Below are positions 15,763-45,585 of a DNA stretch of 51,210 nt, in pieces (position 1 is the first letter of the stretch; each line of letters opens with the position of its first letter). The notes below the pieces were generated by a model. That model was not told the origin of the DNA. It did not search any database and saw only the letters and a list, made by a program, of their open reading frames with translations. Source of the DNA: Actinomycetota bacterium (GTDB lineage Bacteria; Actinomycetota; Acidimicrobiia; Acidimicrobiales; CADCSY01); NCBI GenBank assembly GCA_016781105.1, contig JADDRA010000040.1:1-51210 (forward strand), read 5' to 3'. The position numbers and the translations under genes are program-made.

Positions 15763-16380
15763 CTACGGCCGGGCCAGGGCCCCGCTGAGCACCAGGTCGA
15801 CGATGCGCTCGGGCAGGTCCTCCTCCAGCGCCCCGCCGGTGACCAGGAGGCGGGTGAACACCGGGCCGGCCAGCAGGTCGGCGAGGAGGCCGTGGTCGAG
15901 GCCTTGGCGCAGCTCACCGCGGTCGCCAGCCCGGTCCAGGGCGGCGCGCACCGGACCCCGGCGAGCCTGGATGTAGGCGTCGAGGCGGGTCCGCAGCTCG
16001 GGGTTGCGGGCGGCCTCGTCGACCGTGGCCGGCAGCAGGCCTCCGATCGGCGAGTCGCGCATGGTGGTGACGAGCCCGCCCAGGAGCACCAGGAGATCCT
16101 CCCGGAGGTCTCCGGTGTCGGGGTCGGAGGGGCAGGGCCCCATCTCGCTGCCCGCAGCCAGCAGGAGGTCCTCCCGGGTGGGCCAGCGCCGGTAGATGGT
16201 GGCCTTGCTCACTCCGGCCCGCTCGGCCACCGCCTCCACCGACGTGCCGGTGAAGCCCTGCTCGCACAGCAGGGCCACGGTGGCGGCCAGGATGGCGGCA
16301 TCGAGCCCGGGATCGCGCGGCCGGCCGGGGCGCCGATCGGCCTCGGCCCCACCGGCCGGCCCGCCGGCCGGATCGGTCAC
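15763..16380 (-). CDS. TetR family transcriptional regulator
   Basis: HTH AILAATVALLCEQGFTGTSVEAVAERAGVSKATIYRRWPTREDLL. Confidence 0.9.
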   Translation of the reverse strand: MTDPAGGPAGGAEADRRPGRPRDPGLDAAILAATVALLCEQGFTGTSVEAVAERAGVSKATIYRRWPTREDLLLAAGSEMGPCPSDPDTGDLREDLLVLLGGLVTTMRDSPIGGLLPATVDEAARNPELRTRLDAYIQARRGPVRAALDRAGDRGELRQGLDHGLLADLLAGPVFTRLLVTGGALEEDLPERIVDLVLSGALARP

Positions 16381-16390
16381 GCCGGTTCGG

Positions 16391-18025
16391 TCACGCCGGG
16401 GCTCGAGCCGCCTCGGTCCCCTCGGCGGCCAGGGTGAGCGCCTCGGGTGCCGACTCGCCGGTCCCGTCGTCGATCGCCGCCGACCGGGCCCGGCCGGGCA
16501 GGAAGGCGGCGGCCACGACGGCGCCCACCAGGGCCACGCCTGCGGCCACCAGCACCGCGGTTCCCATGGCGTCGACGAAGGCCACGCGAGCGACCTGGGC
16601 GATGGAGTCGCCGGCGGCTCCACCTACGGTGGCGGCCAGGGCCAGGGCCGCCCCCAGCGACTCACCGGCGGCCGTCACCGCCTCGGTGGGCAGTGGAAGT
16701 CCTCGCAGGGACGTCACCATCGACGAGGCGTAGCCCGACGCCAGGAGACTGCCGAGCACGGCCACCCCGAGGGCGCCCCCCAGCTCCCGGGTGGTGTCGT
16801 TCACGGCCGAACCCACGCCGGCCTTGGCCGGGGGCAGCGAGCCCATGATCGACTCGGTGGCCGGTGCCATGGTGAGGCTCATGCCCAGGGCGAGCACCAC
16901 CATGGAGGCCAGCAGCGGGCCGTAGCCCGAACCGGCGTCGATGGCGGAGGCCAGGGCCAGGCCGACGGCGGCCACCACCAGGCCCACCGTGACCACCACC
17001 TTGGTGCCCACCTGCTCGACCAGGCGGGCGCTGACGGGCGACACCACGCCCATCACCACCGAGACGGGCAGCAGGCGGATGCCGGCCTCCAAGGCGCTGT
17101 AGCCGAGCACGAACTGCAGCAGCTGGGTGAAGAGGAAGAACGAGCCGAACAGGGCGAAGAACACCAGGGCGATGGCGGCGCTGGCGGCGCTGAACCGGGG
17201 ATCGGCGAAGAAGGCGACGTCGAGCATGGGATGGGCCACCCGGCGCTCCCACCAGATGAAGGCCCCGAACAGTGCCGCCGCGGCCACGAAGGCGGCGATC
17301 GTCATCGGGTCGGCCCACCCCTTCACCGGGGCCTCGATGATGCCCCACAGCAGGACGGCGATGGCGGCGATCGACAGGGCGGCACCGGCGCCGTCGAGAC
17401 GGGTGTGGGAGGGATCGCTCGACTCGGGCAGCAGGAGCCGCCCGGCCACCAGGGCCAGGGCCACGATGGGGAGGTTGAGGAGGAACACCGAGCCCCACCA
17501 GTAGTGCTCGAGCAGCCAGCCGCCCACGACGGGGCCGAGGGCGACGCCCATGCCCGCCATGCCGGCCCAGACGGCGATGGCCCGGGCCCGCTCCACCGGG
17601 TCGGTGAACACGGTGATGATGATCGACAGGGTGGCCGGCATCACAAAGGCGGCGCCCAGGCCCATCACCGCCCGGGCCCCGATCAGCTGGCCGGCGGTGC
17701 CCGAGGCGGCGGCCAGCCCCGACGCCACGGCGAAGACGACCAGGCCGGCCTGCAGCGAGCGGCGCCGGCCGAAGCGGTCGCCCAGGGCGCCAGCGGTGAG
17801 CAGCAGGCCGGCGAAGACGATGACGTAGGCGTCGACCATCCACTGCAGCTCGGTGGTGGAGGCGCCCAGCTCGCGCACCAGCGTGGGCAGGGCGACGTTG
17901 AGGACGGTGTTGTCGAGCACGATGAGCACCAGGCTCAGGCACAGCACGGCCAGCGCCAGCCAGCGCCGGTCACCTGGAGATCGACCCTCGGCCGTGGTTT
18001 CGATACGATCCGGCTGCGTTTCCAT
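16391..18025 (-). CDS. MFS transporter, DHA2 (EmrB/QacA-like) family
   Basis: LDNTVLNVALPTLVRELGAS, WMVDAYVIVFAGLLLTAGALGDRFGRRR. Confidence 0.92.
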   Translation of the reverse strand: METQPDRIETTAEGRSPGDRRWLALAVLCLSLVLIVLDNTVLNVALPTLVRELGASTTELQWMVDAYVIVFAGLLLTAGALGDRFGRRRSLQAGLVVFAVASGLAAASGTAGQLIGARAVMGLGAAFVMPATLSIIITVFTDPVERARAIAVWAGMAGMGVALGPVVGGWLLEHYWWGSVFLLNLPIVALALVAGRLLLPESSDPSHTRLDGAGAALSIAAIAVLLWGIIEAPVKGWADPMTIAAFVAAAALFGAFIWWERRVAHPMLDVAFFADPRFSAASAAIALVFFALFGSFFLFTQLLQFVLGYSALEAGIRLLPVSVVMGVVSPVSARLVEQVGTKVVVTVGLVVAAVGLALASAIDAGSGYGPLLASMVVLALGMSLTMAPATESIMGSLPPAKAGVGSAVNDTTRELGGALGVAVLGSLLASGYASSMVTSLRGLPLPTEAVTAAGESLGAALALAATVGGAAGDSIAQVARVAFVDAMGTAVLVAAGVALVGAVVAAAFLPGRARSAAIDDGTGESAPEALTLAAEGTEAARAPA

Positions 18026-18065
18026 ATCCCTGGACCCTACGCCGACGAGCAGGGACCAGGCAGTG

Positions 18066-18114
18066 TTCTGGCAGTGGAACCGATGCGGTGGCGGCAACGC
18101 ATCCACTGCCAGAA
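18066..18114. repeat. Perfect 13-bp inverted repeat, operator or terminator candidate
   Basis: TTCTGGCAGTGGA-N23-TCCACTGCCAGAA between the gatB stop and the MFS start. Confidence 0.8.
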
Positions 18115-18141
18115 GCGGGTGGGGTCCCCAGCCCCGGCGGC

Positions 18142-19557
18142 TCAGCCCGGGGTGGCGGCGGCCCGCTGGGCCAGCAGGGCGGTGACGGCCTTGCCGTCGG
18201 CCTGGCCCCGCGTCGCCCGCATGACCTGGCCCACGAAGAAGCCGCTGACCTTGGCGTCGCCGGCCAGGTAGCGATCCCACGCGTCGGGGTTGGCGGCGAT
18301 GGCCGCATCGACCGCGCCCGCCAGCTCGTCGCCGCCCAGGGCCCGGAAGCCGAGGCGCTCGGCCACCGCCGCCGGGTCGCCCCCGCCGGCCACCAGCTCG
18401 GCCAGCACGGCCTTGGCCTGGGTGGCGGTCAGGGCCCCGTCGGCCTCCAGGCGCGACAGGGCGGCGAAGGCTTCGGGGTCGAGAGCGCCGGTCCCCCCGG
18501 CCAGGTCGTGCTCGGCGTGCACGACCAGGCGCCGCCCGTCACCGCCGGCGGCGAGGGCGCCCAGCACCAGGTCGTCGAGCCCCCGCTCCACCACCACGGC
18601 GACGGCCGCGGGGACCGACCCGGTCGCCTCGGCCAGGCGCCGGCGGCGCTCGGCGGGCAGCGGGGGCAGCCCGGCCCGCACCTGGCCCAGCCAGGCGTCG
18701 TCGGGGGCGAGGGGCACCAGGTCGGGCTCGGGGAAGTAGCGGTAGTCGTAGGCCTCCTCCTTGGAGCGCAGCGGGTGGGTGCGCCCGTCGGCCTCGTCCC
18801 AGTGCCGGGTCTGCTGGGCCACCTGCTCGCCCGCCTCCAGCAGGGCGATTTGGCGCCTGGCCTCGTAATCGATGGCCCGGCCGAGCGAGCGGGTGGAGTT
18901 CAGGTTCTTGACCTCGCAGCGGGTGCCGAAGGTGGAGAAGCCGGCGGGACGCACCGAGATGTTGGCGTCGACGCGCAGGCTCCCCTCCTCCATGCGAGCG
19001 TCGGATGCGCCCGTGGCCAGCAGCACCGCCCGCAGCTCGTTGACGTAGGCCCGGGCCTGCTCGGCCGAACGCAGATCGGGCCGGCTCACGATCTCGACCA
19101 GGGGGACCCCGGCCCGGTTGTAGTCGACCAGGGAGTGGTCGGCCTCGTGGATGCGTCCGCCCCCGCCCACGTGGGTGGACTTGCCCGTGTCCTCCTCCAG
19201 GTGGGCCCGCTCGATGCCCACCCGGGTCCCGTCGGGCAGCTCCAGAGCGCCGTCGACGTTGATGGGCCGGTCGTACTGGGACACCTGGTAGTCCTTGGGC
19301 ATGTCCGGATAGAAGTAGTTCTTCCGGTGGAACAAGCTGGGCTCCACCCTGCAGCCGAGCGCCAGGCCCAGGCGCACGGCCAGCTCCACCGCCCCCCGGT
19401 TGAGCACCGGCAGCGAGCCGGGCAGGCCCAGGCAGACCGGGCACACGTTGGTGTTGGGCTCGTCGCCAAAGGCGTTGCGGCACCCGCAGAACAGCTTGGT
19501 GGCGGTGGCCAGCTCGCAGTGCACCTCCAGGCCGACGACGGTTTCCCAGTCGCTCAC
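18142..19557 (-). CDS. gatB: Asp-tRNA(Asn)/Glu-tRNA(Gln) amidotransferase subunit B
   Basis: [40 protein letters not shown]. Confidence 0.95.
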
Positions 19558-38263: not shown

Positions 38264-39385
38264 TTAGCGCCCCGGGGACGCAGCGCCGGGCACGGCCAGG
38301 CCGGCGGCGATCACCTGCAGGTCGAAGCCCTCGATGCGGATGCGCAGGTCGAAGTAGACGAGCGTGGCGGCGATGGCCACGATGGGCTCGGAGACGAGTG
38401 AGGCGACGATGCCGCCCACGGCCAGCACGATCCAGCCGTGCTCCAGGCCGAAGAACAGGGCGACGAAGCTGGGCACGAAGCCGAGAGCGCCGGCCACCAG
38501 CGAGGTGATGAGCCCGGCCAGCAGGCTGATGCCCACCACCGGCCAGAAGCGTCGCCAGACCAAGCTCCAGGACCGGCGCACCCCGTCGAGGGGTCCCAGC
38601 TCCTCGACCACGATCGCCGGCGCCACCACCACCGACAGGGCGGACACGACGAGGACGAGCGGGCCGAGGACGAGCAGGCCGAGCCCCCCCACCACGACCA
38701 GGGCGCCCAGCCCGGCGCCCAGCGCGACGAGCACGAGGCCGCCCACGATGCCGACCAGCAGGGGCAGGTGGGAGAGGATCCAGCCGCCCAGCAGCGCCCA
38801 GAACCGGCCCAGGGTCCGGCGCAAGGCAGGTCCGGCGGCCAGGGTCTCACCGAGGTAGGAGGCGGCCACCACCTGGCTGATGGCACCGGCCATGAACGGC
38901 AGCACGAGGAGGCCGCCCAGGCTGACCACCAGCGACGAGCCCACGTCGCCGAAGGGCTGCGCCGCCTGGGCGTCGAGCACCGACGGGTCGCCCAGGGCGT
39001 CGAAGAGCCCCGCCCCCGACAACAGGTCACGCTGGGCCCAGGCGGCGACGAGCTGGAGCGGCACGGTGAAGGCGGCCACGATGACCACGATCGAGCGGGC
39101 GTTGGCCTTGAACAGCTTGAAGACGCCGTCGAGGATGTCGCCCACCGTCATGGGGTGCAGCGGCAGCGGCCCCGTGCGGGCGTCGCCCGCCTTAGGGCGG
39201 CCCGGGCCGTAGCCCGGTGGCGGGCCGTAGCCCGGTGGGGGGCCGTAGCCCGGTGGGGGGCCGTAGCCCGGTGGCGGGCCGTAGCCCGGTGGCGGGCCGG
39301 AGCCGGACGGCCCCGGCGGGTCGACCGGGGCCCAGCGGGGATCGACCGGGCCGGGCCCGCCCTCGGCGTGGGGAGGCTCGGCCAC
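38264..39385 (-). CDS. Polytopic membrane protein with Pro/Gly/Tyr-rich N-terminus
   Basis: (PPGYGP)n then HPMTVGDILDGVFKLFKANARSIVVIVAAFTVPLQLVAAW and multiple TMs. Confidence 0.8.
   Translation of the reverse strand: MAEPPHAEGGPGPVDPRWAPVDPPGPSGSGPPPGYGPPPGYGPPPGYGPPPGYGPPPGYGPGRPKAGDARTGPLPLHPMTVGDILDGVFKLFKANARSIVVIVAAFTVPLQLVAAWAQRDLLSGAGLFDALGDPSVLDAQAAQPFGDVGSSLVVSLGGLLVLPFMAGAISQVVAASYLGETLAAGPALRRTLGRFWALLGGWILSHLPLLVGIVGGLVLVALGAGLGALVVVGGLGLLVLGPLVLVVSALSVVVAPAIVVEELGPLDGVRRSWSLVWRRFWPVVGISLLAGLITSLVAGALGFVPSFVALFFGLEHGWIVLAVGGIVASLVSEPIVAIAATLVYFDLRIRIEGFDLQVIAAGLAVPGAASPGR
39204..39293. repeat. 5 x 18-bp tandem repeat encoding PPGYGP
   Basis: gggccgtagcccggtggc/g repeated five times. 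Confidence 0.9.
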
Positions 39386-43773: not shown

Positions 43774-44262
43774 CTACACGGCGACGATGTGGGTGGTGGC
43801 GATCCGGCCCTCGACCAGCTCGACCGTGGCGAGGGTGGGGTGGGGCTGGGATCGGCGCTGGGTCGGGGAGCCGGGGTTGAGGAGCCACTGGCCCTCCAGG
43901 CCGGGCCCGTCCCAGGGGATGTGGCTGTGGCCGAAGACGACCAGCTCGGCGGTGGGGAAGGCCCGCCGCAGCCGGGCCTCCCGGCCCCGGCGAGGGCCGC
44001 TGTCGTGGACCATGCCCACGGCCACGCCGGCCAGCGTCAGCTCCAGGCGCTCGGGGAGCACCCCCACCAGGTCGTGGTCGTTGTTCCCCAGCACGGCATG
44101 GGTGGGGGCGTAGGCCTCCAGCTCGTCGAGCACGGAGGCGTCGACGATGTCCCCGGCGTGGAGCACCACCTCGGCCTGCTCCAGCTCGGCCCGGACCCGA
44201 GGCGGAAGGCCGCGGTGTGACCCGGCCCGCAGGTGGGTGTCGGCCAGCACCACCACCCTCAC
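43774..44262 (-). CDS. Metallophosphoesterase, YfcE/MJ0936 family
   Basis: VVVLADTHL, VVLHAGDIVD, HAVLGNNDH, VFGHSHIPW. Confidence 0.9.
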   Translation of the reverse strand: MRVVVLADTHLRAGSHRGLPPRVRAELEQAEVVLHAGDIVDASVLDELEAYAPTHAVLGNNDHDLVGVLPERLELTLAGVAVGMVHDSGPRRGREARLRRAFPTAELVVFGHSHIPWDGPGLEGQWLLNPGSPTQRRSQPHPTLATVELVEGRIATTHIVAV

Positions 44263-44304
44263 CGCTCGCACACCCTCACCGCTCGCGCACCCTCACGGCT
44301 CGGG
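44254..44304. repeat. 3 x 17-bp tandem repeat at an MFS stop / phosphoesterase start junction
   Basis: CACCCTCACCGCTCGCA / CACCCTCACCGCTCGCG / CACCCTCACGGCTCGGG. Confidence 0.9.
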
Positions 44305-45585
44305 GCTCCTCCCGGCCCGCGGCGCTGTGCGCCGGGCCAGGCGCTCGGCGGCCCGGGCCCGCCCCGCAGCCACGGTCGAGGCCAGGGGGGCGGTGCTGAC
44401 CCGCCGGCCGGTGGCGTAGAGGAAGGCCGCCATCCCGGTGACGGCCCCGATGGCGACGTAGCCCAGGTCGAGGGGCACGGCCACGACCACGGGCACGAAC
44501 GCCCCCGCCACCCACAGCACCTGGAAGCGGGCCTCGAAGCGAGCGAAGGAGGCACCCTGGTTGGCGTCGGGGGCGTCACGCTGGACGATGGAGTCGAAGC
44601 ACAGCCGCCCCGCCGTCGCCCCCAGCCCGACGACGGCGGCCAGCGCGGCCGCCGAGACCCGGCCCCCCACCCAGAGCAGGGCCAGCGCGCTGAGGGCCAC
44701 CACGACCAGCGACCCCAACAGGATGCGCTCCTCGGGAACCCGGCGGCGCAGCCAGGGGGCCAGGGTGGCCCCGGCCAAGGCGCCCAGGGCACTGGCGGCG
44801 ACGACCAGCCCGAACCACCAGGCGGGCGCGTCCTCGGCCCGCAGGGCGAAGGCGACCAGGAACGACAGGAACCCCACCACCGCCCGCAGCACGGCCATGG
44901 CGCTGGCCGCCAGCAGGATCCCCGCCCCCCGCAGCTCGGCCCGCTCGGCCGACGTCGCCGGCGCGGCCGCCACCCGGGTGCGGGGGATGCGGGAGGCGGC
45001 CACGGTGGCGGCGATGAACACGAGGGTGGCCAGCCCGAGGACCCACGACGGGCCGAGCTGGAGCAGGGCCACCCCGGGGACGGCAGCCAGCAGCCCGACG
45101 ATGCCGCTGATCAGGACCAGCTTGGAGTTGGCCTCCACCAGCTGGGACTCGTCCCGAACCAGGCCGGGCACGAGGGACGCCCGGGCGACCTGGTAGCCCC
45201 GGGCCAGCACGAGCACGCTGAAGGCCTCGGGGAACAGCAGCAGGCCGTCGACGTCGTCCACCATGAGGAGGCAGATGACCGCCCGGACGGCAGCCGAGAG
45301 CACGACCATCGAGCGCCGGCCACCCGCCCGAGCGTCGATCCAGGGGCCGATGAGGGGGGCCACCACGGCGAAGGGGGCCATGGTGAGGAGCAGGTACAGC
45401 GCCACCCGGGTGCGGGCCGCGTCGGGCGAGATGGAGAAGAACAGCGACCCGGCCAGGGCGGTGGCGACCAGGGCGTCGCCGGCGGTCGACAGGGCGTGGG
45501 TGCGGGCCAGGCGTGCGAACGGAGGTGGGACCGCCACCGGCGGCGGGGGGCTGCGCAGCGCACGCCATCCGGCCGGGGCGTCCAC
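44293..45585 (-). CDS. MFS transporter
   Basis: 12-TM-like ORF; LARTHALSTAGDALVATALAGSLFFS; GTG preceded by TACCAT. Confidence 0.85.
   Translation of the reverse strand: MDAPAGWRALRSPPPPVAVPPPFARLARTHALSTAGDALVATALAGSLFFSISPDAARTRVALYLLLTMAPFAVVAPLIGPWIDARAGGRRSMVVLSAAVRAVICLLMVDDVDGLLLFPEAFSVLVLARGYQVARASLVPGLVRDESQLVEANSKLVLISGIVGLLAAVPGVALLQLGPSWVLGLATLVFIAATVAASRIPRTRVAAAPATSAERAELRGAGILLAASAMAVLRAVVGFLSFLVAFALRAEDAPAWWFGLVVAASALGALAGATLAPWLRRRVPEERILLGSLVVVALSALALLWVGGRVSAAALAAVVGLGATAGRLCFDSIVQRDAPDANQGASFARFEARFQVLWVAGAFVPVVVAVPLDLGYVAIGAVTGMAAFLYATGRRVSTAPLASTVAAGRARAAERLARRTAPRAGRSPEP

Follow-up and report, generated by a model that had tools for sequence, protein, structure and literature searches.

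Mycobacterial interspersed repetitive units (MIRUs) carry in each unit a small open reading frame (ORF) that overlaps the contiguous ORFs at both its ends (PMC4473831), and they are inserted such that this ORF is coupled at -4 (PMC12548453). The units measure 77 and 53 bp (senX3-regX3) and vary in number between strains (PMC2453075, PMC4213456). Here we describe a 17-bp tandem array between a major facilitator superfamily (MFS) transporter gene and a phosphoesterase gene, on the minus strand of a 51,210-nucleotide stretch from a member of the Acidimicrobiales (the whole stretch is hereafter called the window). Comparison of this junction with those of relatives, and with similar arrays elsewhere in the order, makes it fairly likely in our judgement that the array is a locally amplified stop/start overlap acting as a relay that keeps the two genes coupled, and that such duplications in this order are kept in relay phase only.

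The array and MIRUs share several features: both are tandem repeats between co-directed genes, with small ORFs that overlap the contiguous ORFs in the same orientation by their stops and starts. To this we add the remark that 77 and 53, like 17, equal 2 mod 3. Dyad symmetry is also lacking, local RNA folding at the array being no better than that of shuffled sequences (z +0.82). In contrast, the 17-bp unit matches neither MIRU unit size, and its pattern is confined to one locus of the genome rather than being spread over many loci as one shared sequence. MIRUs form an apparently mobile, dispersed family with units several times longer, whereas the array unit derives from the sequence of the junction itself and is a different one at each locus. 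The arrays are therefore not MIRUs by unit size and shared dispersed sequence, yet would work like them.

Other described systems share single aspects. Each link of an array is an ordinary -4 or -1 overlap as found in termination-reinitiation pairs (ATGA, GTGA, TGATG), of which the ancestral junction was a plain member; unlike these, an array strings several links together by way of ORFs 3-6 codons long that arose by tandem duplication. Upstream ORFs, nonsense-peptide nfORFs and GUGUGA frame correction likewise involve very short ORFs that end at or near a start and promote its use, but act at first start sites or in synthetic constructs, whereas the array is a natural tandem relay between operon genes. 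Bacterial variable number tandem repeat (VNTR) loci share the short tandem array and likely slippage origin; their units differ from the present one, which holds a stop and a start in coupling-preserving phase. As far as the literature searched shows, short relays that are made locally, recur across an order and are restricted in phase are new.

The 17-bp array and its flanking genes

The features of the junction, all on the minus strand, are as follows.

44293..45585, minus: upstream gene, MFS_1 transporter of 430 aa (ORF; PF07690, E 2.1e-11; stop homologous in relatives)
44306..44310, minus: AGGAG, Shine-Dalgarno-like, 9 nt before GTG 44296 of mini-ORF 1
44254..44304, minus: 17-bp tandem array of three copies, each with GTGAGGGTG (sequence, Tandem Repeats Finder (TRF))
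44288..44304, minus: copy 1, CCCGAGCCGTGAGGGTG
44271..44287, minus: copy 2, CGCGAGCGGTGAGGGTG
44254..44270, minus: copy 3, TGCGAGCGGTGAGGGTG
44276..44296, minus: mini-ORF 1, VRVRER-stop, from GTG 44296 to TGA 44276
44259..44279, minus: mini-ORF 2, VRVCER-stop, from GTG 44279 to TGA 44259
44269..44273, minus: GTGTG, two start codons, each in its own frame
43774..44262, minus: downstream gene, Metallophos_2 phosphoesterase of 162 aa, VRVVVLADTHL... (ORF; PF12850, E 2.2e-32)

After the last bases of the MFS gene, ...CCCGAGCCGTGA, the strand continues with GGGTGCGCGAGCGGTGAGGGTGTGCGAGCGGTGAGGGTGGTGGTGCTGGCC, which is the phosphoesterase. The MFS stop TGA (44295-44293) shares bases with the first array GTG (44296), and the phosphoesterase GTG at 44262 aligns with the RTGA start of relatives. 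The sequence and coordinates of copies, mini-ORFs, starts and stops given by a first-pass annotation proved exact to the base. Pairwise identity among the three copies is 14-16 of 17, a divergence of one to three bases.

The array satisfies the definition of a tandem repeat or VNTR, being head-to-tail and above chance: with a TRF score of 84 it is one of three arrays in the window that score 84 or more, and no such array appeared in 60 Markov simulations of the window (orders 1, 3 and 5). When a two-copy pattern was searched with up to three mismatches allowed, this was the only matching locus of the focal genome, and among 397 genomes of the order a mismatch-free match was found solely here. 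Rfam and plasmid similarity searches returned nothing of use. The strongest tandem repeat of the window lies elsewhere (39203-39304; 18-bp unit, 5.7 copies, 96% matches, TRF score 183), and its unit is a multiple of 3.

The mini-ORFs follow from simple arithmetic. In an NTGA overlap the stop begins one base past the first base of the start, such that with unit length u the next copy's stop lies u + 1 bases from the start; each start's frame closes at the next copy's stop because the unit length equals 2 mod 3. At u = 17, each copy opens a frame that is closed by the copy after it. Nothing beyond this unit length is needed for the mini-ORFs, whose peptides, VRVRER and VRVCER, need have no function. 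Because three copies amount to three steps of -1, the MFS and phosphoesterase genes also share one frame, open but for a single TGA. They lie +30 nt apart and do not themselves overlap by 4 nt, the overlaps at this junction involving the mini-ORFs.

Candidate initiation signals are spread over the junction. The AGGAG motif (44310-44306) is far from the phosphoesterase start, and the duplex energy of the stretch before 44296 is -10.3 kcal/mol, compared with -7.6 before 44262. The GTGTG results from a C/T difference in copy 3; its GTG at 44271 is an alternative start in frame with the phosphoesterase, and GAGG-type motifs occur upstream of both candidates, GTG 44262 and GTG 44271. With AGGAG placed 9 nt before mini-ORF 1, ribosomes initiating de novo, should there be any, would likewise tend to join the relay from the first link.

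Origin of the array and the proposed relay

The same junction in relatives indicates how the array arose. In genomes G001, G002 and G003 of the same genus, as in G008 of the same family, the MFS and phosphoesterase genes overlap directly by 4 nt, as RTGA, and no repeat is present. Across the 18 relatives with an MFS gene upstream, an in-frame RTG stands at a 4-nt overlap in 15, TGATG in two and a +4 spacing in one; the +30 gap was seen in the focal genome only. Since MAFFT alignments could not place the gap, junctions were compared by the lengths between homologous codons. By this measure the MFS stop is homologous to within one residue (430 aa in the focal genome; G001 and G003, 431 aa), and +30 exceeds -4 by 34 nt, exactly 2 x 17. 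Taken together with the aligned phosphoesterase start, these lengths show the array to be a lineage-specific amplification of the ancestral stop/start overlap plus a few flanking bases. The amplification probably proceeded by replication slippage around the ancestral 4-nt GTGA overlap. Copy number accordingly differs between species, three in the focal genome versus one in the relatives, and ranges from two to six among relay loci.

In the proposed relay, ribosomes finishing the MFS gene would restart at GTG 44296 and terminate at 44276, restart at GTG 44279 and terminate at 44259, and finally restart at the phosphoesterase GTG 44262, every link being a 4-nt overlap. Translational coupling of the two genes would thereby be preserved despite the 30 nt that separate them. 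Slippage may yield repeats of any phase; where the genes are coupled, the repeats that leave termination-reinitiation uninterrupted would persist, while duplications in other phases would leave a gap that breaks coupling. We infer both that ribosomes use the relay and that other phases are selected against.

Published reinitiation data make such a relay plausible. Reinitiation at native Escherichia coli pairs fell by 40-80% at a spacing of +14 nt and was nearly all gone at +38, and the final 15 nt of the upstream gene were enough for it (PMC10666635). GUGA and AUGA start-stop sites support release factor 2 (RF2)-dependent reinitiation after very short frames (PMC9841429). Given so steep a fall-off with distance, the two genes should become uncoupled across a 30-nt gap, and two 6-codon ORFs linked by GTGA would re-couple them. 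According to a review, laboratories differ in their results on distance, and ribosomes may be delivered by short ORFs (PMC12548453). Each link probably loses ribosomes, so that the relay most likely keeps coupling at a somewhat reduced level.

Stop/start arrays at other gene junctions

We defined a repeat-built stop/start relay as a tandem unit of 2 mod 3 with overlapping stop and start, in which the first stop closes gene A and the last start opens gene B. The focal array falls within this class, as do two further loci of the focal genome (G000), which was covered by a crude coding scan over about 0.9 Mb of its 2.2 Mb, and other loci across the order.

16377..16394 of the window, minus: relay of two 14-bp units with mini-ORF VTEPA-stop, between an MFS ORF (16391-18280) and a TetR-like regulator (15763-16380)
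L143 (G000:C14), 1389-1435: pafB/pafC junction, four TGATG at 14-nt spacing (WYL and HTH_PafC domains)

At the first of these, the MFS stop at 16393 is followed through copies GTGACCGAACCGGC/GTGACCGATCCGGC by the regulator, which begins VTDPAGG..., and the corresponding MFS/TetR junction of G003 (L265) is a direct GTGA overlap. The peptide VTEPA resembles the beginning of the TetR-like regulator, VTDPA. The pafB/pafC array holds the mini-ORFs MDAG, MRRD and MAAR, each closed by a stop. All four copies keep CTGATG unchanged but vary at the remaining eight positions, a pattern to be expected were the stop/start overlap important. G001 and G003 have a single TGATG at this junction, and in G002 the pafB GTGA opens a 13-codon ORF whose stop overlaps the pafC start as TGATG, giving a relay without a repeat. 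Repeats of other kinds were also noted: a 16-bp unit in three copies (GCCGCTACTGCTGAGG) at a gene stop on the plus strand of L168, at about 14064, is an ordinary non-relay duplication, and a TTGA-type repeat of two 17-nt copies lies at L130:12043.

Elsewhere in the order, TGATG arrays were found at the following junctions, the genes being called by open frame, by codon-position composition and for most also by Pfam.

G035, L288 (G035:C201) 1501-1573: TGATG x5, 17-nt unit, ABC-type genes; four near-identical TGATGGAGGCGGTCACC units and a final TGATG
G044: 17-nt unit, solute-binding protein to permease
G071: 17-nt unit, ABC2 membrane protein to ABC ATPase
G179: 11-nt unit, upstream gene without Pfam match, downstream small ORF
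G061 (single-contig genome): 14-nt unit, Fe-S protein to Oxidored_q3, NuoI/NuoJ-like
G053: 14-nt unit, HEM4 to ALAD, HemD/HemB-like
G115: 14-nt unit, histidinol dehydrogenase (hisD) to short-chain dehydrogenase (SDR)
G076, L341 (G076:C34) 1501-1575: TGATG x6, 14-nt unit, ArsA_ATPase to ArsA_ATPase
G016: 14-nt unit, sulfotransferase to epimerase
G139: 14-nt unit, exonuclease VII small subunit to ELFV dehydrogenase

The unit length is 11, 14 or 17 nt in every case, and hence 2 mod 3. Fixed spacings were used in these searches, a scan for TGATG with variable gaps having been swamped by in-frame coding repeats. Seven TGATG at 14 nt in each of G055:C68 (L359) and G026:C23 (L360) were rejected as junction relays, with no clear gene starting at the last copy. 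The 17-nt matches L313 and L316-L321 were not between two convincing genes and, like the doubtful L322, were left uncounted.

Matched scans at neighbouring unit lengths yielded seven junction arrays at 14 nt versus none at 13 nt in 138 genomes, and two at 17 nt versus none at 16 nt in 397 genomes. The non-relay scans did return arrays, eight at 13 nt and four at 16 nt, and the 10 loci examined, which leave out two of the eight 13-nt arrays, both of one genome, were all outside gene-gene junctions. The ratio of relay to non-relay arrays was thus 9:0 at junctions versus about 14:12 elsewhere (Fisher p = 0.015, on small counts). Repeat-built relays therefore recur across the order at unrelated gene pairs, and in the matched scans do so in relay phase only. 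The architecture proposed in the first-pass annotation is accordingly real, derived from a conserved RTGA overlap and repeated at other junctions, within the matched scans in the relay phase alone; its suggestion that such relays are not commonly described has to give way to the MIRU precedent.

Several points weigh against the relay. Besides the small counts and the two arrays left out, tandem duplications across gene stops in general, at about 14 sites per 1884 stops, displayed no clear phase preference. Composition confounds a wider test of phase that takes in every short gap: in five sampled genomes, pairs with a TGA stop, a gap of at least 4 nt and an RTGA start had an excess of gaps of 1 mod 3 (34 vs 4 and 3 for RTGA stops), and CTGA/TTGA stops displayed the same bias, weaker and about twofold. 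Because of this weaker like bias the GTGA-to-GTGA gap excess is not used as main evidence; it is partly a composition effect, probably arising from off-frame TGA in NTG|A codons. The phosphoesterase also carries weak de novo initiation signals of its own. Lastly, other studies have reported coupling over longer distances (PMC12548453), in which case a relay would be unnecessary.

Competing explanations and wider meaning

The alternative that survives best, although we judge it unlikely, is a neutral duplication with no role in translation. The mini-ORFs would then be a by-product of arithmetic, with de novo initiation of the phosphoesterase at either GTG 44262 or the in-frame GTG 44271. Stop-spanning duplications are indeed common and of mixed phases, a relay is expected by chance for one third of unit lengths, and with GAGG-type motifs ahead of both starts it may be relevant that ambiguous GUGUG starts in E. 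coli can initiate both frames (PMC9841429). Against this stand the 9 to 0 restriction of junction arrays to relay phase, the invariance of CTGATG amid variable positions at pafB/pafC together with the non-repeat mini-ORF by which G002 keeps the link, and the strongest Shine-Dalgarno-like motif, which serves mini-ORF 1 and not the phosphoesterase.

A copy-number rheostat, whereby within-species variation in unit number would set phosphoesterase output relative to the MFS transporter, appears improbable. Tandem arrays can vary in copies, the present loci hold two to six, orthologues differ (3 vs 1 and 4 vs 1) and MIRU copy number differs among strains (PMC2453075). The divergence among the focal copies nevertheless speaks against rapid recent turnover, and neither MFS nor phosphoesterase function gives a reason for tuning. 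The relay is probably not a dedicated expression tuner.

That the extra copies are an assembly artefact, absent from the organism, is very improbable: the 2.2-Mb genome is indeed a draft in 122 contigs, of which the window is C85, but the 51-bp array is presumably below ordinary read length, its copies differ at single bases, and equivalent arrays are present in unrelated assemblies, including that of single-contig G061. Readthrough of the single TGA to give an MFS-phosphoesterase fusion protein is hardly credible, as the open shared frame that would favour it is a mere result of copy number, in relatives the two genes lie in separate frames (-4 overlap), other relay arrays as a rule have no shared frame, and no readthrough signal is known at the junction.

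Under the relay reading, a duplication could be accommodated at a coupled operon junction with coupling retained, and the rule involved, a unit length of 2 mod 3, is simple and testable across all prokaryotic genomes. The arrays also offer a natural test of whether reinitiating ribosomes traverse several stop/start links serially, a matter on which published distance data disagree. More tentatively, and with considerable doubt on our part, short tandem relays may be general, fast-evolving coupling elements in Acidimicrobiia and perhaps more widely, in which slippage at overlapping gene ends creates chains of mini-cistrons, only units of 2 mod 3 are kept by selection, and copy number sets downstream output. 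MIRUs, mainly known as typing markers, would then be the dispersed form of this wider class.
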